Below, one piece after another: positions 37-33,224 of a stretch of DNA of 64,000 nt. The stretch's first letter is position 1; each line of letters opens with the position of its first letter. Source of the DNA: Daphnia pulex (lineage: Eukaryota; Arthropoda; Branchiopoda; Diplostraca; Daphniidae); the NCBI RefSeq assembly GCF_021134715.1, contig NC_060018.1, positions 3,799,501 through 3,863,500 of the forward strand, in the 5' to 3' direction. The position numbers and the translations under genes were made by a program. The notes under the pieces were generated by a model that saw only the letters and a program-made list of their open reading frames with translations, was not told the DNA's origin and did no database searches.

Positions 37-5206
<5,170 letters not shown>

Positions 5207-6236: not shown

Positions 6237-6490
6237 TGACAGTAGAACTCCACCATTTTAAATAATTTTTAAAAATTTCTTTGTATGCGACAGTAGAACT
6301 CCAACGACAGTAGAACTCAAGAGACACAAGAACTCCTTTTTTTAAATATTATTAAAAATACCCGACAATAGAACTCCAGTGCCCGACTGTAGAACTCCAC
6401 TACGCGACAATAGAACTCCAATAATTTTTTTAGTTATTGTCATGTCCGATAATAGAATTCAAACGATTTTAATATTATAGAACTCCATTG
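6237..6490. repeat. Degenerate tandem repeat, unit GACARTAGAACTCCA
   Basis: About eight to nine copies of a roughly 15-base unit occur here with irregular spacing. Clear ones are near 6237, 6290, 6304, 6363, 6384, 6403, 6448 and 6473; one variant at 6322 reads GACACAAGAACTCC. The spacers are T-rich or A-rich. No known family was recognised. Confidence 0.75.
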
Positions 6491-6499
6491 AATTTTAAA

Positions 6500-7890
6500 T
6501 ATTTTAAATGTCCTCCAACGATTTTAAAATTACATTCCTCTCGGTCAATCATTTGTCTCATTAGCCGGTCTTGCCGAATGAATCGGATGTACAGTATCTC
6601 AGATCAGGAACATGGCGTTTTACGGGCAGGTCCAGTGAGTCAACTTTAATCATACATCATTAAAATTTTCTTTAACTTTAGTGATCAAAAAAGTGGCTCC
6701 CATACCCCCCAATCTCATCAGATTTATTTGTATGTGATGTGTATCTGATTATTCATTTCTCGTGAGTCGTGTCGTGATGTTAAGCTTCGGAAAGCAATCC
6801 ACCATCCGTTCCGTACAGTCAAACGTGGTAATCGTGAGAAATCTTTTGGCTGTCGGTAGGTGGCAAAAATGGATTGTCCCCCATCCACCAGGTGACGCGA
6901 GTGTCTTCGTGGGACGAAATATTTGCCATTTGTTTCCGAGACTCTGACTGAAAGTGTATTCCAAATTCATACGGAATTGCGGTGTCGATCTACATTTTCA
7001 GATGAAATCTGAAATGTAATTGGTAATGCTAGTTTGAATTTATTATATTCAATTAATCATAGACGTTTCTATCTGAATTTACAGGCAATCTGGCATATAA
7101 TTTCACTTGGCCAAATAATGTGACGACGTGGGTCGAAAGTCGAAACTGCTGTCCATTTTGCCGAAATGTCGGCAGTTGTTAAAGCCGGTACGTCTCATCT
7201 CGTGCAGAAACACTTCAGAGCTAGTAAAGTAATTCTGTTGATCAATTTCCCTGCAATAATGCATTATGTTTTATTAGTTGATGTTCAGGTCAGAGATCCC
7301 TTTGCTCAACTGTTGTGGATATTGAAAAAATGACAAAAGTCTGAGCTTTATGACTGTTGTAGCATCAACGTGGTTTTGTTGCAGCCAGCTGGTGGGAAAG
7401 GTGTGATCGAGTCAAGTTCAGCTGCAGCTGCTGCATGCAGTTTATCGAGCTGTTGTTATCCCTATTTTTACAACAGGAATGAATTGGTGGTAATTTGACT
7501 GATGTTATTGGTTGTAACTTGGGAAGTCTTGATTTTTTGTTTGTTTTTTAAATTTTGTATTCAATTGACAAGTTTAAGATTAGATTAAATTGTCGAAAAT
7601 TATGGGTAATATTTCTTCTTTCCAAATAATTGTTTCCGTTCAAAGATAGCCACATTGTTAATCAGCTTCCACTGAGTTTTTTTTTCAATTTTCTTCCAAT
7701 CCAACTAGAACAAAAATTCCCACTCAGTATTACCAAGTTTTTATAACATATTGGAAGTAGATGTACAGAATTCTTTCCTGGTTTCTTTTTTTCAATTCAA
7801 ATTAATTTTAAATTAAGTAAATTTCATTAGCGGTACCATATGTTCACATTTCAAAATTTTATTGGTTCATTAATGTTCTTTTGCTTTGTA
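6500..7890. other. Gene-poor stretch with possible promoter-like pieces
   Basis: No convincing gene is seen. Two short ATG-initiated pieces followed by donor-like sites occur at 6611 and 7165, and a CTCF-like CACCAGGTGACG box occurs at 6889, so one or two 5' exons of unrecognised transcripts are possible. The rest is AT-rich. Confidence 0.3.
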
Positions 7891-8657
7891 GGAGTTCATG
7901 GTCAGTTTCATGTTTGAGCTGTTTATGGTGTTGCTGTTTGGTGTACAGTGGTTTTGAAGTCCCTATCCAGTTGAGAGATGCTCTGAAGCAGACTTGCAGT
8001 TCAACATCACACTTAAATGTGTCATTTGCCTATGTTGGTGTCCATGCAGTATATGCCGTGTTGAAAAGTTGGGTAAAATAGTCAATGTTGCCTGATGGCT
8101 GTCGGTCTTGTTTTATCGGCTGCATTTTTCGATATGTCGTCTCTTGGTACCGGCATTGAAGTAATGCTTGATGTTTCGTTCAGTTGTCGACTTTTAATTA
8201 AATCTTTATTCGTTTTTCAGTTTCATCGTTTGCTACTTTGCTGCCGTTCCATAGACTTGATCATTGTTAAAACTGAGGAGAGGTTGCTGAAATTCAAGAC
8301 TCGTCAATATAAATTATGTAGATGTAGAAAAATTACAAGTGCATATCTGGGCTCCCTTCTTCAGTGGCCCCGTTTCCCTAAATAACCACTAACCAACGCC
8401 CGCCGGTGGTCACTCACTCACTGCGACAACCAGGAGGAAGGGAGATGTTTGGTCGACCGGGGACTTGCAAGGCGCATGATTCGATGAAATCTGTTGGAGG
8501 GTCATGAGTCTAAGCCGGAAGCCTTCTATGACACACTGCTCTCATAATAACTGCTCCTCAGCTTTCTTCGCTCTTTTTCCGGTTTCTCTTAACCATGGCC
8601 GGGTAATCTCCCTGGTCGAGTCAGTCGGGCAGTGTCTCCCCCTGCTTGACTGGCTAC

Positions 8658-8806
8658 AGTTTGTACCGGACGGTTTGTTTAATAAATAAAACAAGTATAA
8701 AAAACCATATAATGTTTTCATTTTATAAATTGTTAATAGGTAACAACTTGATTAACAAGCATATTTATGTAACGTTGTTTATTAAACAGACCGTCCGATA
8801 CAAACT
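8658..8806. mobile_element. MITE-like hairpin element (left arm)
   Basis: This 149-base AT-rich segment is bounded by terminal inverted repeats of about 29 bases. The left end begins AGTTTGTACCGGACGGTTTG; the right end is its reverse complement with two mismatches. There is no coding capacity. The short size, TIRs and AT-rich core suit a non-autonomous DNA transposon, but no clear target-site duplication was found. Confidence 0.65.
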
Positions 8807-9338
8807 CTTAGTTAGTACTATTGCTCAAAAACTGATTCTCTTGAATCAGCAGACTCGAGTGTTTATAGCGCCGCCAAGGTAGATATTTCTGAATGGTACC
8901 CGTCTTGTCAACTGCTAATGATTCGTGTTCTTGGTTTGACAGAAGCTGTGTTGTGTGTGTTGATCGTCTCCACCATGCACGCGATAATGAAGACCAGCAA
9001 CGTCTTGATCAAGGAGAAGCAAAGAACGACGATGTAACTACTAAATAGCGGGGTGGGTACCGCTAAATTCATTCTTAGTTGAATGTCGAATCGCTAATAG
9101 CATTGTTGGTTATGGTAGAACAGTTTTCCACACTGGTACGCTGTATGACGTCGAGCATTGCCAAAATGGAAGTGATCTTTGAAGAACTGAGCGTCTTCAA
9201 AGCCAGCAATGTTTCTTTTTTAAAATTACTGTGGTAATAATTCAAGATGATGAAGTCTAATTAGGTAGAAAACCTTTCTGAAAAGTTTAGGAGCCATTGT
9301 TAATTTCAATTGGTGTAAAGTGAGTTTTAAGCCATAAT

Positions 9339-9775
9339 CATTTGGTATTAATTTTTATATGGGTTGTTGTAGACCCATTCCAATCCCCAGCAACGTAAAC
9401 CTGCAGAAGGAAAGGCACGTAAAACTTGTCATGCAGTGGTGTAGAGGTTGGGTGAGAACGGGATGTATTACATAACCATTTGGTATTCATTTTGAATTTT
9501 GATATTGGTTGTTGTAGACCCACCCCCAGCAACGACAACCTGCAAAAGGAAAGGCACGTTAAACTTGTCAAAAAGAGGTTGGGTGAGAACGGGATGTGTT
9601 ACTGTTACATAACCATTTTCATTTTGATATTGCTTGTTGTAGACCCATCCCCAGAAACTTCAACCTGCAAAAGGAAAAGGCAGTCCGCCTGTCCTTCACA
9701 TTCGAAGGTCACGGAGATCATTGCATAAAACGTGTCATGCAGTGGTGTAGAGGTTGGGTGAGAACGGGACGTGTT
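9339..9775 (+). repeat. Three tandem copies of a ~130-base unit upstream of the Tyr-rich gene (left arm)
   Basis: Three direct repeats share the blocks GGTTGTTGTAGACCCA, CCTGCARAAGGAAARGCA and GAGGTTGGGTGAGAACGGGA. Copies run about 9339-9470, 9471-9607 and 9608-9775; the third is longer because of an insertion around 9690-9735. They lie directly upstream of the TATA box at 9839, so they may be a duplicated upstream control region. A mirror set lies at about 16260-16696. Confidence 0.8.
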
Positions 9776-9838
9776 TCATCATTTTCAAGTAGCTACAATA
9801 GCCGCAAGGCTTAAAAGGTGAGGGTGATCAAAAAATCG

Positions 9839-9875
9839 TATAAAAGGAGAGAGAAAAGGCGAAGGTAAATCAGTC
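9839..9875 (+). promoter_or_regulatory. TATA box and initiator of Tyr-rich gene (left arm)
   Basis: TATAAAAGG at 9839-9847 is followed about 31 bases later by TCAGT at 9870-9874, a good arthropod initiator. The predicted 5'UTR leads to ATG at 9933. The promoter looks intact although the reading frame downstream is broken. Confidence 0.7.
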
Positions 9876-9932
9876 GAGGGAGCATCTCCGACACGGCAAC
9901 AACTGCAGCGCTCTGTCTGTCAGTTCGCATCC

Positions 9933-10835
9933 ATGGGTAAATATTCTGTCTTTTACATAGAGTTTGGTATCAATCCTTCTTTTGATTATGTATGCCTGTT
10001 ATTATGTAATATTTATGTAAAAATTTATAATTGTCTAGCAAACTATGGCGTAGTGCTGCTGTTGGGTGTTGAATCTTTGATGGCTGGGTCGACCACTGGT
10101 GAACCGATGTTTTCTTGGTATGGCGGATACCAAACCGCAACGCCGCCGCCTTACTACCCAAAAGCAACTTACGCAACGACCAGTTACTGCACCGAGGTCT
10201 TCAAGTACTACACCACTAAAGCACCGGACTTCAATAGCACAACTTACGCTGCCCCGAGCCACTACACTGACGCCCTGAAGTATTAGTCTGCCCCGAGTTA
10301 CTACACCACCAAGGCGATGGAGGATGACTACGCATGCTGCCCATCCTCCGAGGCTCATATACCGAGGCTCCTAAGTATTACTTTGTTCTCATCTACTTAT
10401 TGCACCGATTTTCCTAAATACTACTCTGTTCCCAGCTGCTACACCGAGGCTCCCGCTGATTACTACACCGAAGCTTCAAAGTACTACTCTGCCCTGATCT
10501 ACACAACCATAACTGAGGCGGCCAAGTATTACGCTGTCCTGACTTGCTGCACAGAAGCTGCTCTTTCGTACTACGTTGAACAGGAATACTGCACTGATGC
10601 TCCAGTTCACTACACCACGACCTACGCTACACCGCAGCTCCCAAGTACTACACCGAAGAAGCCGCCTACAACAACGTATGCTGCCTAGTTTACTACACCG
10701 AGGCTCCCAAGTACTACATCACTAAGGCACCGGAATTCTACACGTCTATACATGCTGCCCCTGCCTACTACACCGAGGCCCCGCATTACTACAACACTGA
10801 AGCGCTCAAGTACTACACTACACTACTGTAGCTAT
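9933..10835 (+). pseudogene. Secreted tyrosine-rich repeat protein, broken, unit 1 (left arm)
   Basis: A first coding exon of only ATGG (9933-9936, donor gtaaat) can be joined to an exon starting at 10039 (acceptor tctag). The product begins MANYGVVLLLGVESLMAGS, a plausible signal peptide, then YYTTKAP, TTYAAPS and HYTDALKYY type repeats. The frame hits TAG at 10284-10286; the sister unit at 11036-11041 has TATTAC there, so a C-to-G change made the stop. Beyond it, recognisable YYTEAPKYY-like repeats continue in shifting frames to about 10835. Tyr/Thr/Ala/Pro repeats with a signal peptide suggest a structural extracellular (cuticle or egg-coat-like) protein. That role is inference; no named family is claimed. 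Confidence 0.7.
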
Positions 10836-11540
10836 CGTTGATGGCTGGGTCGACTGCTGGTGTAGCGATATCTCCTTGGTATGACGGAAACCAAACCGCA
10901 ACGCCGCCGCCTTCCTACTCAACTTACGCAATGACCAGTTCCTGCACCGATGTCTTCAAGTACTACACCACCAAACCACGGGAGTTTTATACCACAACTT
11001 ACGCTGCCCCGAGCCACTACACTGATGCCCTGAAGTATTACTCTGCCCTGAGTTACTACACCATCTAGGCGACGGATGACACCACATGACTACGTATACT
11101 GCCTATCCTACTACACCGAGGCTTCTAGGTATTACTCTGTACTCAGCTACTTATTGCACCGATTTTCCTAAATACTATTCTGTTCCCAGCTGATATACCG
11201 AGGCTCCCGCTGATGTCTCCATCAAGACGGTCGAATACTACACTGAAGCGACAAAGTACTACTCTGCCCCGATCTACACAACCACAACTGAGGCGGCCAA
11301 GTATTACGCAGTCCCGACTTGCTACACCAAAGCTGCTCTTTCGTGCTGCGTCGAACAGAGATACTACACTGATGCTCCAGTCTACTACACCACGACCTAC
11401 GCTAAACCTAGCTACAACACCGCAGACCCCAAGTACTACACCGAAGAAGGCGTCCATACACAACTACGTACGCTGCCTAGCTTACTACATCGAGGAATTT
11501 AAGTATTACTCCTCCAAACTGCTACCAAACTGAGGTTCAT
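10836..11540 (+). pseudogene. Tyrosine-rich repeat, tandem unit 2 (left arm)
   Basis: This is a second, diverged copy of the exon 2 body of unit 1, beginning near MMAGSTAGVAISPWY (10838) and open to a TAG at 11066-11068. The repeats then continue in other frames (for example 11213-11533). It has no TATA box or ATGG exon of its own, so it arose by internal tandem duplication of about 770 bases. Several frame changes make it non-functional as read. Confidence 0.65.
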
Positions 11541-11639
11541 ATGTATTACATCAGCAATTCTTCCCACCTTGTCACCACTATTTACGCTACTCCGAGCTAT
11601 ATACCGAGCTCTTAAGTATTTTTTGGATGGGTTGAAAGA

Positions 11640-12945
11640 TTATTGAAATACAAGATTGATTCATAAATCACAATTGCATGTCTATTTTCTCTTAAGTACC
11701 TTTTCTCCTGCTGATCATTGCATAATGTGAAAAATATTTTTGAGTGCTATGTAAACTTACAAATAATGATCTTGCAAAATACAACAATGAAAATTCAAAC
11801 TCCTGTTTTACATTTCAAAATTTTTTTCCTATCATTAAAATTCAAAGACCAACAAACAATATTTCTAAAAATTCAAAATCCACCATCTATTTTTCTGCTA
11901 AGTCCAGACTTTTGTTTTTGAAAAAAAATTTAAAAAAATCCCCCCTTACAAAGTTTTTTAAAAATTTTGCTAAAAAATTTGATACGAATTTTTATTGCAT
12001 AAAAAATTTATTTTCATAATGATCACATACATTTATTTATCCTGTGGCCCCCAGGGGGGGGGGCCTGTCGCTTTCTCTACCGCGATAATAACATGATGCA
12101 AGTTATATGCAAGTTATTATTTGTTTGGTGCAGAAAGCTTGTTTTATCTAGCAGTTCTCGACTGTTTCAAACCTGACATTGATCAGGTTGCCTCAGTCGT
12201 ATACTGCATGATTGAATGAAAACTCAAAAGACGACAGATCAAACTTTTAACGCAGCAACACAAAATATCACTGGCAGAGCAATTTCGTATGGCATGGATG
12301 AAAACGACAACACAAAATTTTTGAAGTCAGGAACCCAGATGGAACAGCTCAGCTACAACAGCACAGCAACTTCTGGATCACACTGCAATCGCATTCAGCA
12401 TACAACAGTTCAATCTGTCTTTGTCACACCTTTCACCATTTGGCTGCAACAAGGTAACCACCAGCATTTGTTTTACCTGTTTAAGAAAAGAAAATTATTT
12501 TCGAGAAACACAACTGTGTACACATTATAACAAAAGAATACAAAGAGTGACAGAAAACTACGCAGTCCAACAGAAAAACTTTGATATCCGATTCAAAGCT
12601 TCTATAGTAAACTAAATCTGTAGTACTTCTGCAAGACATTTGATCAAAAAATAATTACTTTTTACTGTTGAATGGGGTGAGACGTAAGCCAAAGAATAGG
12701 CAGCGAGACGCACGAGGCACGCCATTTCGGAAATGTACAGGAACTTCCCAAGTCTGAGGTGAATGATTTGGCAAATTGGTTTCTTCATGCTATATCACCT
12801 GTAAATTTTCACATCAACATTTTACATTCAATAACAATAGGAAATTTAACAATCAATACGGAAAATACCTTTTAATTTTCATCGTGAGAAACGTCACAAC
12901 CAACAACCCACTTCTGCTGCGTCTTGGATCAAAATGGCCGATAAG
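11640..12945. other. AT-rich, unrecognised inner arm segment (left)
   Basis: No recognised gene. It contains A/T runs, a ten-G run at about 12054-12063, and an ORF at 12216-12530 whose codons up to about 12453 end at a donor-like gtaacc. This could be an exon, but no partner or homology is recognised. The same sequence is mirrored at 13089-14394. Confidence 0.4.
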
Positions 12946-13088
12946 CGTCCCTGAAGACAATCGGCAATCGCGCTATCTGGTGGACATCATACAGCCACTT
13001 ATTCACAGCCACCTATTGACAGCCATTAGACTCCTGAATAAGTGGCTGAAATGATGTCCACCAGGTAGCGTGAGTGTCTTCAGAGAAG
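12946..13088. promoter_or_regulatory. Palindrome centre with paired CTCF-like boxes
   Basis: A diverged inverted pair flanks a short spacer. The right half reads CCACCAGGTAGCG (about 13059-13071) and the left half its counterpart CGCTATCTGGTGG (about 12970-12982), each followed outward by GCCATTTTGAT. The box resembles the CTCF core CCACCAGGTGGCG and the outer block resembles a YY1-type AAAATGGC site in reverse. Back-to-back promoters or insulator sites are possible; this is inference. Confidence 0.35.
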
Positions 13089-14494
13089 CTTATCGGCCAT
13101 TTTGATCCAAGACGCAGCAGAAGTGGGTTGTTGGTTGTGACGTTTCTCACGATGAAAATTAAAAGGTATTTTCCGTATTGATTGTTAAATTTCCTATTGT
13201 TATTGAATGTAAAATGTTGATGTGAAAATTTACAGGTGATATAGCATGAAGAAACCAATTTGCCAAATCATTCACCTCAGACTTGGGAAGTTCCTGTACA
13301 TTTCCGAAATGGCGTGCCTCGTGCGTCTCGCTGCCTATTCTTTGGCTTACGTCTCACCCCATTCAACAGTAAAAAGTAATTATTTTTTGATCAAATGTCT
13401 TGCAGAAGTACTACAGATTTAGTTTACTATAGAAGCTTTGAATCGGATATCAAAGTTTTTCTGTTGGACTGCGTAGTTTTCTGTCACTCTTTGTATTCTT
13501 TTGTTATAATGTGTACACAGTTGTGTTTCTCGAAAATAATTTTCTTTTCTTAAACAGGTAAAACAAATGCTGGTGGTTACCTTGTTGCAGCCAAATGGTG
13601 AAAGGTGTGACAAAGACAGATTGAACTGTTGTATGCTGAATGCGATTGCAGTGTGATCCAGAAGTTGCTGTGCTGTTGTAGCTGAGCTGTTCCATCTGGG
13701 TTCCTGACTTCAAAAATTTTGTGTTGTCGTTTTCATCCATGCCATACGAAATTGCTCTGCCAGTGATATTTTGTGTTGCTGCGTTAAAAGTTTGATCTGT
13801 CGTCTTTTGAGTTTTCATTCAATCATGCAGTATACGACTGAGGCAACCTGATCAATGTCAGGTTTGAAACAGTCGAGAACTGCTAGATAAAACAAGCTTT
13901 CTGCACCAAACAAATAATAACTTGCATATAACTTGCATCATGTTATTATCGCGGTAGAGAAAGCGACAGGCCCCCCCCCCCTGGGGGCCACAGGAAAAAT
14001 AAATGTATGTGATCATTATGAAAATAAATTTTTTATGCAATAAAAATTCGTATCAAATTTTTTAGCAAAATTTTTAAAAAACTTTGTAAGGGGGGATTTT
14101 TTTAAATTTTTTTTCAAAAACAAAAGTCTGGACTTAGCAGAAAAATAGATGGTGGATTTTGAATTTTTAGAAATATTGTTTGTTGGTCTTTGAATTTTAA
14201 TGATAGGAAAAAAATTTTGAAATGTAAAACAGGAGTTTGAATTTTCATTGTTGTATTTTGCAAGATCATTATTTGTAAGTTTACATAGCACTCAAAAATA
14301 TTTTTCACATTATGCAATGATCAGCAGGAGAAAAGGTACTTAAGAGAAAATAGACATGCAATTGTGATTTATGAATCAATCTTGTATTTCAATAATCTTT
14401 CAACCCATCCAAAAAATACTTAAGAGCTCGGTATATAGCTCGGAGTAGCGTAAATAGTGGTGACAAGGTGGGAAGAATTGCTGATGTAATACAT

Positions 14495-15199
14495 ATGAAC
14501 CTCAGTTTGGTAGCAGTTTGGAGGAGTAATACTTAAATTCCTCGATGTAGTAAGCTAGGCAGCGTACGTAGTTGTGTATGGACGCCTTCTTCGGTGTAGT
14601 ACTTGGGGTCTGCGGTGTTGTAGCTAGGTTTAGCGTAGGTCGTGGTGTAGTAGACTGGAGCATCAGTGTAGTATCTCTGTTCGACGCAGCACGAAAGAGC
14701 AGCTTTGGTGTAGCAAGTCGGGACTGCGTAATACTTGGCCGCCTCAGTTGTGGTTGTGTAGATCGGGGCAGAGTAGTACTTTGTCGCTTCAGTGTAGTAT
14801 TCGACCGTCTTGATGGAGACATCAGCGGGAGCCTCGGTATATCAGCTGGGAACAGAATAGTATTTAGGAAAATCGGTGCAATAAGTAGCTGAGTACAGAG
14901 TAATACCTAGAAGCCTCGGTGTAGTAGGATAGGCAGTATACGTAGTCATGTGGTGTCATCCGTCGCCTAGATGGTGTAGTAACTCAGGGCAGAGTAATAC
15001 TTCAGGGCATCAGTGTAGTGGCTCGGGGCAGCGTAAGTTGTGGTATAAAACTCCCGTGGTTTGGTGGTGTAGTACTTGAAGACATCGGTGCAGGAACTGG
15101 TCATTGCGTAAGTTGAGTAGGAAGGCGGCGGCGTTGCGGTTTGGTTTCCGTCATACCAAGGAGATATCGCTACACCAGCAGTCGACCCAGCCATCAACG
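14495..15199 (-). pseudogene. Tyrosine-rich repeat, tandem unit 2 (right arm)
   Basis: Mirror of 10836-11540. The open part runs 15197-14967, then degenerates in the same way as the left copy. Confidence 0.65.
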
Positions 15200-16102
15200 A
15201 TAGCTACAGTAGTGTAGTGTAGTACTTGAGCGCTTCAGTGTTGTAGTAATGCGGGGCCTCGGTGTAGTAGGCAGGGGCAGCATGTATAGACGTGTAGAAT
15301 TCCGGTGCCTTAGTGATGTAGTACTTGGGAGCCTCGGTGTAGTAAACTAGGCAGCATACGTTGTTGTAGGCGGCTTCTTCGGTGTAGTACTTGGGAGCTG
15401 CGGTGTAGCGTAGGTCGTGGTGTAGTGAACTGGAGCATCAGTGCAGTATTCCTGTTCAACGTAGTACGAAAGAGCAGCTTCTGTGCAGCAAGTCAGGACA
15501 GCGTAATACTTGGCCGCCTCAGTTATGGTTGTGTAGATCAGGGCAGAGTAGTACTTTGAAGCTTCGGTGTAGTAATCAGCGGGAGCCTCGGTGTAGCAGC
15601 TGGGAACAGAGTAGTATTTAGGAAAATCGGTGCAATAAGTAGATGAGAACAAAGTAATACTTAGGAGCCTCGGTATATGAGCCTCGGAGGATGGGCAGCA
15701 TGCGTAGTCATCCTCCATCGCCTTGGTGGTGTAGTAACTCGCGGCAGACTAATACTTCAGGGCGTCAGTGTAGTGGCTCGGGGCAGCGTAAGTTGTGCTA
15801 TTGAAGTCCGGTGCTTTAGTGGTGTAGTACTTGAAGACCTCGGTGCAGTAACTGGTCGTTGCGTAAGTTGCTTTTGGGTAGTAAGGCGGCGGCGTTGCGG
15901 TTTGGTATCCGCCATACCAAGAAAACATCGGTTCACCAGTGGTCGACCCAGCCATCAAAGATTCAACACCCAACAGCAGCACTACGCCATAGTTTGCTAG
16001 ACAATTATAAATTTTAACATAAATATTACATAATAACAGGCATACATAATCAAAAGAAGGATTGATACCAAACTCTATGTAAAAGACAGAATATTTACCC
16101 AT
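15200..16102 (-). pseudogene. Tyrosine-rich repeat protein, broken, unit 1 (right arm)
   Basis: Mirror copy of the unit at 9933-10835. The mini exon is at 16102-16099, exon 2 starts at 15996, and the same premature TAG lies at 15751-15749. Sharing of the stop in both arms means the mutation predates the duplication or was copied between arms. Confidence 0.7.
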
Positions 16103-16160
16103 GGATGCGAACTGACAGACAGAGCGCTGCAGTTGTTGCCGTGTCGGAGATGCTCCCTCG

Positions 16161-16196
16161 ACTGATTTACCTTCGCCTTTTCTCTCTCCTTTTATA
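16161..16196 (-). promoter_or_regulatory. TATA box and initiator of Tyr-rich gene (right arm)
   Basis: Mirror of 9839-9875 on the minus strand, with TATAAAAGG at 16188-16196 and the initiator near 16161-16165. Confidence 0.7.
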
Positions 16197-16259
16197 CGAT
16201 TTTTTGATCACCCTCACCTTTTAAGCCTTGCGGCTATTGTAGCTACTTGAAAATGATGA

Positions 16260-16696
16260 AACACGTCCCGTTCTCACCCAACCTCTACACCACTGCATGA
16301 CACGTTTTATGCAATGATCTCCGTGACCTTCGAATGTGAAGGACAGGCGGACTGCCTTTTCCTTTTGCAGGTTGAAGTTTCTGGGGATGGGTCTACAACA
16401 AGCAATATCAAAATGAAAATGGTTATGTAACAGTAACACATCCCGTTCTCACCCAACCTCTTTTTGACAAGTTTAACGTGCCTTTCCTTTTGCAGGTTGT
16501 CGTTGCTGGGGGTGGGTCTACAACAACCAATATCAAAATTCAAAATGAATACCAAATGGTTATGTAATACATCCCGTTCTCACCCAACCTCTACACCACT
16601 GCATGACAAGTTTTACGTGCCTTTCCTTCTGCAGGTTTACGTTGCTGGGGATTGGAATGGGTCTACAACAACCCATATAAAAATTAATACCAAATG
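16260..16696 (-). repeat. Three tandem copies of a ~130-base unit (right arm mirror)
   Basis: Mirror image of the repeats at 9339-9775, upstream of the minus-strand copy of the tyrosine-rich gene. Confidence 0.8.
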
Positions 16697-17228
16697 ATTA
16701 TGGCTTAAAACTCACTTTACACCAATTGAAATTAACAATGGCTCCTAAACTTTTCAGAAAGGTTTTCTACCTAATTAGACTTCATCATCTTGAATTATTA
16801 CCACAGTAATTTTAAAAAAGAAACATTGCTGGCTTTGAAGACGCTCAGTTCTTCAAAGATCACTTCCATTTTGGCAATGCTCGACGTCATACAGCGTACC
16901 AGTGTGGAAAACTGTTCTACCATAACCAACAATGCTATTAGCGATTCGACATTCAACTAAGAATGAATTTAGCGGTACCCACCCCGCTATTTAGTAGTTA
17001 CATCGTCGTTCTTTGCTTCTCCTTGATCAAGACGTTGCTGGTCTTCATTATCGCGTGCATGGTGGAGACGATCAACACACACAACACAGCTTCTGTCAAA
17101 CCAAGAACACGAATCATTAGCAGTTGACAAGACGGGTACCATTCAGAAATATCTACCTTGGCGGCGCTATAAACACTCGAGTCTGCTGATTCAAGAGAAT
17201 CAGTTTTTGAGCAATAGTACTAACTAAG

Positions 17229-17377
17229 AGTTTGTATCGGACGGTCTGTTTAATAAACAACGTTACATAAATATGCTTGTTAATCAAGTTGTTACCTATT
17301 AACAATTTATAAAATGAAAACATTATATGGTTTTTTATACTTGTTTTATTTATTAAACAAACCGTCCGGTACAAACT
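17229..17377. mobile_element. MITE-like hairpin element (right arm copy)
   Basis: Mirror copy of the element at 8658-8806, carried by the palindrome duplication rather than by independent insertion. Confidence 0.65.
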
Positions 17378-18139
17378 GTAGCCAGTCAAGCAGGGGGAGA
17401 CACTGCCCGACTGACTCGACCAGGGAGATTACCCGGCCATGGTTAAGAGAAACCGGAAAAAGAGCGAAGAAAGCTGAGGAGCAGTTATTATGAGAGCAGT
17501 GTGTCATAGAAGGCTTCCGGCTTAGACTCATGACCCTCCAACAGATTTCATCGAATCATGCGCCTTGCAAGTCCCCGGTCGACCAAACATCTCCCTTCCT
17601 CCTGGTTGTCGCAGTGAGTGAGTGACCACCGGCGGGCGTTGGTTAGTGGTTATTTAGGGAAACGGGGCCACTGAAGAAGGGAGCCCAGATATGCACTTGT
17701 AATTTTTCTACATCTACATAATTTATATTGACGAGTCTTGAATTTCAGCAACCTCAGTTTCACCAATGAATCAAGTCGAAGCCGGAAAGCGGCAAACGAT
17801 TGAACTGAAATGAGGGGAGATTTTAATTAAAAGTCAATAATTAAATGAGACTTTACATCAAGCATTACCTCAACGCCGGAACAGGTAGCAAGAGAAGACA
17901 TATCGACAAAACGAAGCCGATAAAATAAGCCCAACAGCCATCAGGCAACATTGACAATTTTATCCAACTGTTCAACACTGCATGGACACCAACATAGGCA
18001 AATGACACATTTAAGTATGATGTTCAACTACAAGTCTGCACAAGCTCCATTCAAGTGCAGCTCTCAACTGGAAAAGGGCTGCAAAACCACTGCACAACAG
18101 CAACACCAAAACAACTCAAACATCAAACTGACCATGGAA

Positions 18140-20570
18140 TCACACAAAGGAAAATAACATTAATGGCCAAAGAAAAAAATATTGATAATAAAATTTGCAA
18201 AGAAAAACATGAAAATACATGCAAGTGATGTTTAACTTTGGCTTAAAACTGTTAAATAAACAAAAAACCACCTGCAAAAAACACCTAGTAGTTAAGGCAA
18301 TGATTAACTTCAAATGTACACTAAACTAGAGAAAAAGAAATAAAAAATATTACCATAGACTGTGTTATGTTTTTAAGAATGAAGGGAATTTCTGTTCTGT
18401 TAGATCTAACAAAATTTACAACTCTTTACAAGAACTTTCCACAAAAGCTAACTTATTTAGAAGCATGAAATAAGATGTCACTTGTCTTCGACATCAAGAA
18501 CAAAATGCTACCCTACTTGATTTATCTTACAATACATTATTACCATTTCAGATTTCCTGAGTGTTTTCAACACATTTTTGTCTTGCAATTTAGTAGAGAC
18601 CCTCTCAAAAGCGCATCTTCGTGACATGGCAGCGATAACGTGGAGTAAGGTAGAAGATCTTCGACATGCTTTTATAAAATAAATCAAATTTAATTTAGAG
18701 AAGACTAGAACATGGACTTTTCGAAAAGTAAAAAATCCACGACTCACTAACTTGCTTTTGAATTGTTCACTTTCAATTCAGCTTGGTCGAATGGCGTGGA
18801 AATACCTCATGGTTTTTTCAAAGTAAAAGCGAAAAACACCGTCAGCAACACATTTACATTTCCGTCTGTCTCAAAAAGCAAATGGCGGAATCCGGAATCG
18901 TCACCGGTCACTCACTCACTCACGAACAAACACTCCGCCACCTGGTGGACACAATTTTACACACCTATTGACTAGTGACTACCCCTAAAATTGTGAAAAA
19001 ATAAAGAATTAGAGAATGAAGATTTACCAGGCAATTCTTGACTTCAGAAAAGAAACATGTACCAAAGTTGACATTTGAATAAGTAAATGCAGGCTGAAGT
19101 GAATAGGCCCATATCAAACATCTGCTTCTGTAGTTCTCATTTCCCAAATACCCCGAAAATCTAGAGTCAGGAATCTAGAGGAAACAAAGATGTAAATTTA
19201 GCATTTCAAATAATATTATTCAGAAGAAACATGTAACAGAATAATAAACAATAAGAGAATGAAGATGGACTATGCAATCCTCTAGAAACTGCAAACATTT
19301 ATCACAACCAAATGAACGTGGAAGGCAAGAGTAATAGAATTAGTTAAAAACATGTTGACACATGGTATGGTATACTATATACATATACTTACCATTTACA
19401 TTTAGCATGCTGAATTACCCAACAAACCACAGCACGCGATAAGCACAATTTCTTCGAAAAATCACATTGCCTTATCTTGGAAAGATCTAGGCATCTAGCC
19501 TGATATTTGGCGTTCAGCTCAAGATTTCACATGAACTGGCACCTACATAACAAAGTTCTGCTTTATATTTTAATTGGTTTGCAAAGCAAAAACATGAAGC
19601 GGATATACATTACAAACCAGGACGATCACTACTGTGGGGATCTATCAGTTGTTGTCGATTCTCGTCGTGTCGACCAATGCCAGCAGCCATTTTGAAAGTA
19701 ACGCGCGAGGTGCAGCATTGCCATTTTCAGTTTTGCAATTAAAAACGTCCGCATTATGGCATCATATGGCATCTCCGCTAGCCAATCAGCCAAAGCGGCA
19801 AAAGTCTGGCTGTGAACTTTGAATAATTTTTGAATAATTTTCCAATAAAATAAATTGTGCCTCGCGCCTAGCGTCGCCAGTTTCCCTCCGGGACTTTTGG
19901 GGTTTAACTTAAATGAGGGAGTGTGCATAATAAATTTTTGGGGGTTCGGAGAAAGGTTATAGGTATATAGGTTAAGTATTTTTTCGCGCAATGTAGGGTG
20001 ATTGCTCGGCGCTTATTATAAACATCATTTCGGGGTGTAACTGTAATCCAGGAGCAAGCCTAACTATTTTTTTTTCGGTTACCTTTTGACCATTTTCACA
20101 ACTTGTATCATTTGGATCCCTATCATGTTGGAATTGAAGACATTTAATGCAACTTTAAAGCCGGACTATCTAGGCAACAAATTTTGTTTTCTAATGAAGA
20201 GAGGGCAGAATTTTCATCAACTCACTTATAGATTAGCGAAGTGTGATTTATGGATCAACTTAGTTGAGTAGCCTAGTGAATTTCTTACGAAGCATTCTAA
20301 GTAAATTTATGCAACCAACTCCGCGGATTATCCTCCACGAATAACCAATTCCATTCGTCATCATTTTTCTAAAATCATTTCTCATGACCAAAATGTTAAG
20401 CTCTATGTACCGCTTTTCTATTCGAAACTCGGTGTCGTTGGATAGCTGTCACAAGCAGGGGTATGGAGAGAAATCGAACAAAGGTTTTTATATAGCAAAC
20501 CGCGATTGGTTGTATTAAATTCCAACTCGTAACACGTAGTTATACAATGCCAAGAATGAGGGTAGTAAAG
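18140..20570. other. Region without recognised genes
   Basis: AT-rich sequence between the palindrome and the IP3 receptor remnant. A CTCF-like CCACCTGGTGGAC box lies at about 18939 (minus orientation) with ATGGCGG about 40 bases further out. A single splice-bounded open stretch on the minus strand at 19174-19028 (49 codons, acceptor ctctag, donor gtaaat) may be an exon, but nothing connects to it convincingly. Confidence 0.4.
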
Positions 20571-26167: not shown

Positions 26168-27611
26168 CTATTTCGATAAATTTGGAACTCTATAAAGAAG
26201 TTCTCCGTCTGCCGTGTAGAATGAATCGCCTTTTTGGTAGATACTATCAGTATTTTCGCCATTTTCCGTCTTCGTCAAGATCCTTGAATTTTGCTGCTGA
26301 AAACATTTGATTACAATTTAGAGATAATTATGATTAATAGAAGTATAGTAATACCGTGTCTCTATCTTCGCTTAATTGTACAATTTTCAAGTCAGCCTCC
26401 TCGAGGACTTTCCGTTCCGAATGGGTAGACTCTTGAGATGACCACTTGGGAGGCGATTTGTTCGAAAGGTATTGAAGCACCAAGTCTTTGTCGACGCTAA
26501 CATCTTCAGGCTCCAAATCAACTTCTGTAGATTTAAAATTGTTCTTCACTATACTTTCTTCTGTTATTCCCATGTCTTTTTTCAACTCCTGCAGAGTTAC
26601 TCTCTGGTTTTCCTTGAACATTCGTGACTTTGATGGATGTGTTGAAGTTCTTGTAATTTCCTGCTGTTCTTCTACAACATTTGCTAATGGATGAATTTCA
26701 ATAGGGTTGGATAGATTTAATTCCTCTGATTTTGGTTTTTTGGGAATCCATTTAGCAGTAGCAATAGCTTTAGCTACTTGCGGTTCAATGCGAAAATGCT
26801 CTGCAATCATCTCAAATGTCCACTGTTGCGGATCACTGTTGTGTAGAAAACGAATATGTTCCTTATCTGACCACGAAAGAGTTTTTTCTTCAACCGCATC
26901 TTTGAAATATTTTTGCTTGACCATCTTCATTTTGACAAGTTCCTTAATCTCTTGTTTTTTGCTCTGTGCTTCATCGTACATTTTGTCAAACTTGTTCACA
27001 TTCACTTCGTCATCAAAATCTTCTTCCCTTGCGAACTCATTTTCATTAGCAAACTCTCCAAGGGCTTCAACCTGTCTTCTTATGCCAGGGTTTCTTTTGA
27101 CTGTGAAACTGGCCATTTTCTTGAAGTCTCCTCTGCACTTATTCTGAATTTCCCTTAGTCTGTCAGATTCTTTGACAAAATGATTACCAACTTTCCATTT
27201 GCTGGGTACACCAATTTCTGATAGATTTGCATTTCCCTGATTTCTTTCTTCACCATAATCTTCTCTTTCTTGGCTTCTGAATCTAGAGGTGTAAGTATCT
27301 CTATTATTTGAATACCTATTTTTGTGTGCAGGACGATCTTCCCAGCTGTCTTCATCATCAGCATTGAAACTTGTATGTCTGCTCCCTGAATTAGAATTGT
27401 ATCTCTGAGGATATCCATCACTATTCTTTTTGTAATCCCGGCTGTTATCATTCCTTTTTGGATAGTCAAAATCATCCTTTTTCACATACTTTTGTCTCTT
27501 TCTTTCGAAGTCTGCATTTGAAAAAGATGCTCCTTTATAGTCGGTAAAATTATGACTAGATGTGGTAAGGCTTCTAGACTGAGACAAACGGGTGAGTACT
27601 GATCTCCACAT
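26168..27611 (-). CDS. Ngrn: Neugrin (NGRN) homologue, mitochondrial rRNA-associated protein
   Basis: Exon 1 (27611-26355) joins in phase 0 to exon 2 (26296-26168), giving 461 residues. The N-terminus MWRSVLTRLSQSRSLTTSS is Arg/Ser-rich and acid-free, typical of a mitochondrial presequence. A low-complexity Arg/Asp/Asn/Ser region follows (residues 25-125). The neugrin core reads LSWSDKEHIRFLHNSDP, QWTFEMIAEHFRI and AKWIPKKP. The second exon supplies the conserved end DSFYTADGELLYRVPNL. Human NGRN works in a mitochondrial 16S rRNA pseudouridylation/ribosome module; the same role here is inference. It is longer than human NGRN (291 residues) because of the disordered N-terminal part. Confidence 0.88.
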
Positions 27612-28613
27612 ACTGAAAAATCAAAGATTTTTATTTTCTTCTTCTTCTATTAACAAGCACGTGTGTCAAACTGAATTCAGAAAACACAGACGGACGGTCG
27701 GCAGAATCAGACAGCAGACGAATTTTTCAACAACATTGCCAGATGTGTAAATTCGGACCTGTCACATGGATAATTTCAATAAAATAATTTTGGTTTTTTC
27801 AACATGTTTATTTTTGTTATTTTTTGTGGTTAAATGATCACAGCAATGGCTTAATGTGACTTTCTAGCTTCTAGATGTTATCGCAACAAAATGGAGGAGC
27901 AAGTCAATGTTAGTGCAGCAGTTATTGGCGAACGCCATTAGATAGAATGAGGGAGGATGATAAAGTCTATATTTTCCTCGTCTATTTCATTATTTGACAC
28001 ACCCTTGTCGAAACATGTTGGAAAAGGAGGGGAAGTGGGAGGAGGACGTTCAAGTAAACCAGGAGCCATCGTGTGGTGTTATTCGTCGTCTCCGTCGTCG
28101 TGCAGGTTATGTATGCGTGACTTGAACTTTTTTTCTTATTTTATTTCTATTTTCCCTCCGTGTATCAACAACTGAGTCTCCATGGAAACGTCCCGGAGTA
28201 CCTAGCACGTAGGTACATAGAATAAGGTGAACACTGCACTCCCCCACGAAACTCACATCATCCGATTCAACTCCCGCGGTCTTTCCCCACACGACGACGT
28301 CGACGGTGGCCAGTTCCTTTCGGCCGTTCTTTTTTTTTCCCCTACCACCCACCCTCTTGTGTACCTCCCCTCTCTCATGTAGACGTCTACACTGGAAAAG
28401 CTAAAAGTTCAGGTGTCGTCTTAGCCGACTAGTCTGTCTGTACACGGACGAAGGCGAGTTAAGTCACGGCGTTCGACGTGAAGCTCGGTTGGCCGCGGGA
28501 TTAGAAAAAAACACAAACAAACCTAGTGCAGCGAGAAGGATTATTATTGACAATCAGTTCTGCAGCTCCTGTTTGTTCCGCTTGGTCGGGAAGGACTAGC
28601 GAAATCGACCAAT
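27612..28613. other. Divergent intergenic region between NGRN and the EGF/LamG gene
   Basis: This 1-kb gap serves as upstream region for NGRN (leftward) and the EGF/laminin-G gene (rightward). A CACGTG E-box lies at 27658-27663, about 50 bases upstream of the NGRN ATG, and CGCCATTAGATAG occurs near 27931. The stretch from about 28380 to 28613 is GC-richer and probably contains the 5'UTR of the rightward gene. No TATA box stands out. Confidence 0.45.
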
Positions 28614-31600: not shown

Positions 31601-33224
31601 AAGCGTCCTAAAATTCCGGTTGTCTTGCGGGCGTCAACAAATGACGCTGGTGGAAACAAAGTACAACGTTTCCGATGGAGATATCCACGCCATTTTTATG
31701 AGGTCAGATCTATTTGTAAATAACTTTGAGCTAAGATTTAGACGAAGTTTATAAATGTGTTGCTATATATAGATTCCTCAAGGTGGAGGACAGAAATTCT
31801 TCCAGTACCTTTTGTATGGGTTCCGTCAAACTGAACAATTCTTACTCGATGAACGGCGAACAGAGATTGGCCGATGACGAACGTTTCACCTGGCCGGGTA
31901 GACTTCACATCGGTGGTCGACCAACTGGAGTACCCACTCCGGCAGAACTTGTCTTCTTGCCCGGAATAATCGGATGCGCCTATACTTTGGAAGTAAATTT
32001 GCGTCTTGCGTTACTTAATTGATGCAATCATCTTTTCAAATGCAAATTGTTACCAGGTTGACGGAAATCGGTTGGACATGATAGCAGACGCTGTTCAAGG
32101 AAAAGCGCTGGATGAGTGTCCGGATCGTCGAGCCAACTGCGGCGGATTGCGATGCCTCAACGGCGGAATATGTCGCACCCACCTGGATAACAACGAAAAG
32201 GAAGATGAACAACAATTTCAAGGTGGTGGATGCCTCTGTCCGATGGGATGGGTGGGGGACCAGTGCGAAATCCGCCAATGCCCGTGCAATCCGTGCCAAG
32301 TCAACAGCACCTGTTTAATGAGCCCCAACGATCAAATGGTTTGCGTCTGCAGTTACGGCCGAATTGGGTCCCTCTGTGAAATTGGTAAGTCTCTTTTTTA
32401 CAAAAATCTACTTTAATTTCACTTCATAGTTTGCTACTCTAAAAATCATTGGGAGCGAATTCAACCGTATTTCAATTGTTTTCACAGCGGTGAACGTGAC
32501 CCGCCCGCAATTCGACGGCACGTTCATGGGCCACTCGTCTTACCTCAGTTTGACTCCGCCGCCATTCATCCGCGAACATTTTGAACTCAAATTCAGTTTC
32601 GTCACGGACGACGCCCGTCAAGTGGCTCTGCTTCTCTTCATTGGCCAGCAAGTCAATGCAGATCAAATGACTGCATCTGGAATCGAAGAGAAAAAGGACT
32701 TTTTGGCTGTTAGTTTCATTCGCGGTCATGTTGCTCTTACGTGGGACTTGGGTTCGGGAGCCAGGAGGATTTTTACAGCTCGCCCTGTCTCCGTCTCGAC
32801 AATGGGAGGCCACTCGGTTCACGTCGGGATGCGGGGCCGAGTGGCTTGGCTTCAAGTCAACAACCAGCCGACCGTCACCGGGAGATCGCCTGGACTCATG
32901 TCTGTTCTCAATGCTCATCCTAGTCTGTTTTTAGGCGGCCATTCCTCTTTCAACCATTCGCGATTACCTTCCGACCTGCCGCTGCATTCCGGCTTTCGCG
33001 GATGCATTTACGACTTGGTGTTCCGCTCCCGTGAATTCGCCGACCGTGACCAAGAATTCGATCATCACAACACAATCAACCATTGGCTGCCGCCCGTTCA
33101 GTCTGGCCGAGGTGTTCGCCAGTGCTCCATTCCGTCGTGCCGACTGCGTATGTCCAAGACCATCGGAGAAAACATCACGTCGTGGAGCGGCAACGACGTG
33201 GAAGATCAATTCGACGATTGCTAA
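28614..33224 (+). CDS. Secreted EGF/laminin-G protein, eyes shut-like
   Basis: Ten exons in phase: 28614-28867, 28954-29105, 29171-29437, 29515-29628, 29779-30022, 30128-31289, 31359-31702, 31773-31992, 32057-32384, 32488-33224, giving 1273 residues. A hydrophobic signal peptide (residues 1-22) is followed by seven EGF-like domains, several calcium-binding (DIDEC, DVDEC). A Thr/Ser/Pro-rich mucin-like block of about 340 residues is encoded at 30185-31200. An eighth EGF, a laminin-G domain, two more EGFs and a final laminin-G domain follow. No membrane helix is present, so it should be secreted. Domain order with a Ser/Thr-rich middle suggests eyes shut/EYS, an extracellular photoreceptor-matrix protein; a crumbs-like protein is less likely without a TM segment. 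Introns between EGF exons are mostly phase 1. Confidence 0.9.

Follow-up and report, generated by a model that had tools for sequence, protein, structure and literature searches.

A dispersed repeat family in Daphnia pulex with palindrome arms very probably homogenised by gene conversion

The palindrome described here lies in a 64,000-nucleotide stretch of Daphnia pulex DNA (contig NC_060018.1, positions 3,799,501 to 3,863,500 of the forward strand; C2:3799501-3863500, hereafter the window), which was compared with a genome of 133,188,837 bases in 13 contigs, all from one assembly. It very probably represents an old inverted duplication that is scattered through the genome and whose arms have been homogenised locus by locus via arm-to-arm gene conversion. 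The pattern of identity along the arms, the pairing of arms by locus, and an arm–spacer junction common to three loci were observed directly.

The self-comparison of the window revealed a single inverted match, spanning 7868-18165 with 97.6% identity over 10,362 columns, and no left–right match beyond approximately 7850 and 18185. Inside it, a tract of about 4.67 kb per arm (Table 1) contains three mismatches (10019, 10293, and 12039) and one indel in a G run (12053), corresponding to an identity of 99.936%. An original prediction, made from the letters of the window, had placed this tract at 8277-12945 and 13089-17758, within 3 bp of the limits found here. When left and right were compared in 100-column steps, 25-42 columns were identical outside 7853, where homology is absent, 68-81 over 7854-8329, and 98-100 from 8330 to 12928. 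The prediction also held that diverged sequence, still homologous and collinear, borders the tract on its outer and central sides, and that identity drops abruptly; indeed, the outer flanks align at 77% over 452 columns (E 7e-89), 42 bp within the central 143 bp match between the halves at 88% (E 8e-11), and identity passes from 77% to 100% between adjacent 150-column steps at a sharp outer border at 8278. Direct tandem copies within one arm (10073-10703 versus 10834-11495) are only 82% identical; the homogenisation therefore acts from arm to arm and is not general.

The arms carry two tandem genes each for a Tyr-Tyr-Thr-rich protein (YYT), mutually 82% identical, and belong to a dispersed family. 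The arm as a DNA query yielded 106 matches (32 of 1,017 candidates scored) and the YYT protein 150 (150 of 1,927 candidates scored), the latter forming at least 72 loci when grouped at gaps below 12 kb; given the limit on scoring, locus counts are lower bounds. Among the 72 scored loci, 47 are single-armed and 25 are inverted pairs, the pairs being spread over 10 different contigs. Orientation is the same in 25/25 pairs, with the YYT 3' ends facing the centre, and mirrored matches are equal in score for every listed pair in 20 of the 25, the unequal ones being the window, two C11 loci, C12:8642k, and C12:9400k. One single-armed copy, C2:1550k, is flanked by inverted repeats of 1.14 kb (C2:1547246-1548383 and C2:1554035-1555172) with 99.7% identity.

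Eight palindromes were compared at base level, namely the window, C2:4054k, C12:9823k, C3:9731k, C12:8647k, C10:13637k, C2:1216k, and C9:610k, with the arms of C12:9823k and C9:610k covered only in part on the outer side. They show 39 mismatches in 43,892 bp of arm, with substitution identities of 99.8-100% except for one 353-bp block at 99.7%, while pairwise differences among nine loci in the module 10833-12609 range from 1.7 to 11%. In a tree of 25 rows based on this module, the arms pair by locus in all eight palindromes, four pairs being identical and four having 100/99-100 support. For instance, C3:9731k, C12:8647k, and C2:4054k differ between loci at 67/1725, 85/1729, and 87/1741 sites (3.9-5%) and within loci at 0, 0, and 5 sites of the module. 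These same three palindromes have the arm–spacer join AACGGC/TTTGAGTTC in common, as read by eye. The same junction in three palindromes implies that the palindrome predates their split; in the absence of conversion, their arms would be expected to differ at about 67-87 of some 1,730 sites. Since differences between arms would be inherited when a palindrome is copied whole, the arms must have been equalised after the split. The predicted scenario of an old inverted duplication with later conversion thus gains support, independently of the flanks, from arms that pair by locus in eight of eight palindromes and from a trio far more alike within loci than between them. Mismatches lie within 200 bp of arm ends in 20/39 cases against 7.3% expected, or in 11/30 without an edge cluster at C3, a clustering that backs conversion as supportive, weaker evidence only. 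At C2:4054k, 11 mismatches fall in the inner 2.8 kb and one in the outer 5.6 kb, as expected if conversion were patchy. Regarding the type of mismatch, all three in the window are A/T or C/G exchanges, as are 10/42 over the base-level loci; three are too few to be meaningful.

The spacers are homologous between palindromes. Out of 281 candidate spacer copies, 40 were scored, of which 29 have an arm within 7 kb and 11 do not; the 29 comprise 10 with arms on both sides, 19 with an arm only on the 3' side, and none with an arm only on the 5' side. These counts argue against single copies as random remnants of palindromes. Three single units were compared with the junction: the match starts exactly there in C4:4063k, and 98 and 184 bp further in for C4:4348k and C5:10865k. 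Single units are probably the older form, and the palindromes would have gained their 5' arm once or a few times, which leaves room for more than one palindrome origin. In the centre of the window, the spacer of its relatives, about 1.25 kb long, appears to have been deleted. Two further suspicions were dropped. An inversion of the spacer between the arms of C2:4054k and C3:9731k is not demonstrated by anything, the orientation of loci being arbitrary, and a THAP/P-type transposase suspected by eye in the spacer gave Pfam matches only below curated cut-offs in six pieces of spacer open reading frames (ORFs).

Flanks were tested in six palindromes; C12:9823k was not counted, the test having fallen in an insertion inside its arm. 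At C3:9731k, 232 columns matched at 70% in offset position and an edge of about 40 bp was diverged, and no outer homology was found in the flanks of C2:4054k, C10:13637k, and C2:1216k. The original argument from diverged flanks consequently stands for the window, where such flanks exist, and is mostly particular to it. Compared in 150-column steps, C2:4054k has 92-100% identity with the window core and 70-86% with the left outer flank; for C2:3987k, identity with the core is 89-100%. Similarity to other loci extends to 6699 on the left side, and similarity to C2:787k to about 19754 on the right; the two flanks are different old versions with different best relatives. Because the core is close to its C2 relatives and the flanks match other loci, the flanks would be old, recording the original pair, and the core recently equalised. 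Exchange with neighbouring C2 loci may also have taken part in equalising the core. The derived state is confined to the left arm at 10019 and to the right arm at 10293; at 12039 the left arm matches only C2:3987k and the right arm the other 15. A transposon terminus at 6699 was considered and rejected since the relatives continue past this position.

A plausible course of events would begin with a unit of two tandem YYT genes that gained an inverted second copy of itself across a spacer, after which many loci came to hold single or palindromic forms. The arms of each palindrome would recombine, probably by hairpin or sister-chromatid pairing, so that one arm is copied into the other, presumably repeatedly and not as one event per locus. 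Conversion of this kind would hold the arms at 99.8-100% while the loci drift apart, and would leave the outer 430 bp or so and part of the centre outside the converted tract with their older divergence of approximately 23% and 12%. Assuming equilibrium and no effect of polishing, the rate would be c = 2mu/d, approximately 0.7-1.3e-5 per site per generation, with d = 6.8e-4 taken from 30 of the 39 mismatches (excluding the edge cluster at C3) and with mutation rates of 2.3-4.53e-9 (PMC12926508). The same source quotes a conversion rate of 6.47e-6 per heterozygous site in D. pulex lines.

Several points weigh against this interpretation. The tree was built on one 1.8-kb module, the test for clustering at arm ends is weaker because the aligner placed those ends, and short-read polishing could wipe out some real differences between arms. 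The shared-junction argument excludes C12:9823k, C2:1216k, and C10:13637k, whose spacer arrangement differs, and the window has no spacer, so that its link to the shared-junction class runs through the tree and not through the junction. Diverged collinear flanks are clear at the window only, among the six palindromes tested. Likewise, no excess of guanine plus cytosine (GC) was found, with values of 0.392-0.406 in palindrome arms versus 0.381-0.406 in single-armed rows. Such an excess is seen in primate X palindromes but is not universal, and its absence here is in line with the report of no GC bias in D. obtusa (PMC12926508).

Typical hairpin-RNA (hpRNA) arms are much shorter than those of the D. 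pulex palindromes. Since the YYT 3' ends face the centre in 25/25 pairs, the promoter-like motifs are placed on the outside, and the palindromes might conceivably be dispersed hpRNA genes, in which read-through from either side would yield long double-stranded RNA matching intact YYT genes. We consider this doubtful: the shared orientation and the outer position of the motifs would fit it, but descent from one founder accounts for the orientation equally well. If it were true, conversion would keep the hairpins perfect, and the family, homogenising itself, would bring about the silencing of the gene family to which it belongs.

A foldback-type DNA transposon, with very long terminal inverted repeats made at insertion, would date its insertion by arm divergence and make conversion unneeded. 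Dispersal over many contigs and homologous spacers agree with such an element, as do the inverted repeats at C2:1550k if taken as terminal, and elements of this kind often lack a transposase (PMC4079207). The arms nevertheless end at variable points, in window terms at 8280 (window), 8309 (C3:9731k), and 9253 (C2:1216k), the arm of C2:4054k extending far past its window-like part; relatives continue beyond the apparent terminus at 6699, and single-armed copies are common (47/72 loci). No Pfam transposase above cut-off was found in the six spacer ORF pieces, searched as whole ORFs, and a foldback element would leave unexplained the diverged but collinear sequence to either side of the window core. 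Together, these points make a foldback origin unlikely.

Independent recent inverted duplications, in which the second arm of each locus is young and hence alike, are highly improbable: the very low arm divergence in the eight palindromes and the seemingly older single units (19/29 spacers with only a 3' arm and none with only a 5' arm) would suit them, but 25/25 pairs lie in one orientation, three loci share one junction despite 3.9-5% difference, and a young copy leaves no diverged collinear flanks like those of the window. An assembly artefact, whether chimaeric reads or scaffolding had created a false palindrome or polishing had equalised the arms, is equally hard to credit. The evidence does come from a single assembly, and scaffolding errors are known to make false palindromes (PMC7953838). 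Against it stand the facts that the outer flanks are different old versions with different best relatives, that 25 inverted pairs of one family share one orientation, and that polishing might erase differences of about 1% but hardly the 23% or so of the flanks.

Table 1. Features of the palindrome in the window (positions are those of the window).
Feature	Position	Strand	Basis
Left outer flank, diverged, collinear with right outer flank	7850..8279		77% over 452 columns; relatives elsewhere 80-87%
Left arm, homogenised tract	8280..12945	+	99.936% to right arm
Promoter-like motifs, left YYT copy 1 (TATAAAA 9839-9845, TCAGT 9870-9874)	9839..9874	+	25-arm alignment
Left YYT copy 1, decayed	9933..10822	+	Start 9933, intron about 9937-10038, in-frame TAG 10284-10286
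Left YYT copy 2, decayed tandem copy	10833..11500	+	82% to copy 1; 2 TAG inside match
Most conserved arm block, foldable into two stem-loops	12056..12235	+	Divergence; fold z -6.1
Centre	12946..13088		42 bp at 88% between halves; compared with spacers of relatives
Right arm, homogenised tract	13089..17755	-	99.936% to left arm
Mirror of conserved block	13799..13978 (about)	-	Arm alignment
Right YYT copy 2, decayed	14535..15202	-	Mirror of left copy 2
Right YYT copy 1, decayed	15213..16102	-	Mirror of left copy 1
Mirror promoter-like motifs, right YYT copy 1	16161..16196	-	25-arm alignment
Right outer flank, diverged, collinear	17756..18185		Flank alignment, step identity; relative at C2:786939

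Regarding the genes within the arms, the frame of YYT copy 1 in the window is ended by its TAG after about 83 codons, and coding similarity extends beyond the stop; the match to the protein query contains this one TAG within a frame of 286 amino acids. The corresponding matches in C2:3987k and C2:4054k also contain one TAG each. It is conceivable that the window gene yields a short functional peptide. Three ORFs from the YYT region of the window gave no Pfam match above cut-off. At E up to 1e-5, 169 protein relatives were found, and those with a named organism among the 120 matches listed belong to D. pulex and, once, to D. magna. Stop-free YYT-related frames occur elsewhere in the genome, with 360 amino acids at C7:10783600 and 402 at C10:16075045. 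Since the arms of the window are identical while their genes look decayed, the likeness of arms need not depend on protein function. Upstream of copy 1, an alignment of 25 arms contains TCAGT in 25/25 and TATAAAA in 23/25, which we take to be promoter-like motifs. Selection on this promoter region was not found, mean divergence being 0.10 versus 0.07-0.08 in the YYT parts; in three distant rows the promoter alignment is out of register.

Among 17 loci, the most conserved arm block has a mean pairwise divergence of 0.019, with 13/180 columns variable compared to an average of about 35% elsewhere. Over 12066-12212, four of nine variable positions are paired and none is compensatory, and the block matched no Rfam family above threshold. 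It is a candidate for a structured RNA or a control element. Close by, a Histone3 stem-loop match at 12021-12070 was rejected as chance (15.5 bits against a cut-off of 34, E 0.24), and a scan of the window found neither a tRNA nor an Rfam family reaching the curated threshold.

Around the palindrome, the window contains ordinary-looking genes, namely a kinase exon (2860-3342, +), a neugrin-like gene (26337-27620, -), and a laminin G sequence (32430-33221, +). A minisatellite with units of 17-21 bp (6288-6420) recurs beside unit ends and in spacers of several relatives, and the segment 19853-20500 belongs to a different dispersed repeat, with more than 20 matches of 86-97% identity spread over many contigs. 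Elsewhere, more inverted pairs of flank-related sequence were located on C6 (about 4.25, 4.58, and 5.13 Mb), C8 (about 11.02-11.04 Mb), and C9 (about 7.80-7.81 Mb), many with equal or near-equal mirror scores, and going by these pairs homogenised palindromes may be commoner in the D. pulex genome. A separate stretch of 0.98 kb (C12:9831721-9832695) is self-palindromic, 95.7% identical to its own reverse complement, and open frames adjoining the C1:4444k palindrome (C1:4454095-4456152) resemble F-box/leucine-rich-repeat proteins by eye only.

To our knowledge, D. pulex has no sex chromosomes of the mammalian type. The comparison with sex-chromosome palindromes offered in the original prediction fits as regards mechanism, while the setting, 25 inverted pairs on 10 contigs, is a different one. 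Mammalian X/Y palindromes are kept identical by gene conversion (PMC8981503; PMC7953838, citing Rozen 2003), and they resemble the D. pulex family in having inverted arms more than 99% identical and more alike than the age of the palindrome predicts, and in that the spacer varies from one related palindrome to the next and may turn into arm sequence. In contrast to them, the palindromes reported here occupy 10 contigs, have arms of 4-8 kb and many related copies in one genome, and, at the window, carry decayed genes in arms for which no GC excess was found. Palindromes are also described in the asexually reproducing bdelloid Adineta vaga and springtail Folsomia candida, where they are proposed to permit conversion; these are reported as unrelated collinear gene blocks, whereas those of D. 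pulex form one repeat family (PMC7953838). Foldback transposons such as Tetris and Galileo (PMC4079207) are, like the D. pulex family, dispersed and built of long inverted repeats around a middle part, and no transposase was found in the six spacer ORF pieces searched here; the D. pulex family differs in showing no common terminus, variable arm ends, and many single-armed copies. The hpRNA loci of Drosophila simulans, as reported, consist of inverted gene copies related to genes elsewhere (PMC10317233), as here; in the D. pulex palindromes, the outer promoter-like motifs would read into the other arm.

The mechanism itself is known; as far as our literature search shows, what is new is that many homogenised palindromes belong to a single dispersed repeat family and lie outside sex chromosomes. 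No converting palindromes in D. pulex were described in the titles and abstract openings searched, most subscription papers and all preprints outside PMC being beyond that search. The species was left unscreened, for lack of annotation, in the palindrome survey of PMC7953838, and the present family is a further case for the discussion of palindromes in asexual animals. The best-known palindromes with gene conversion are those of sex chromosomes; here, at least 25 related ones lie on 10 contigs of one genome, and the 47 single-armed loci scored beside them serve as internal controls. If the interpretation is true, comparison of the copies would allow the rate and bias of conversion, the length of its tracts, and the decay of spacers to be measured, in a genus for which mutation-accumulation lines exist.

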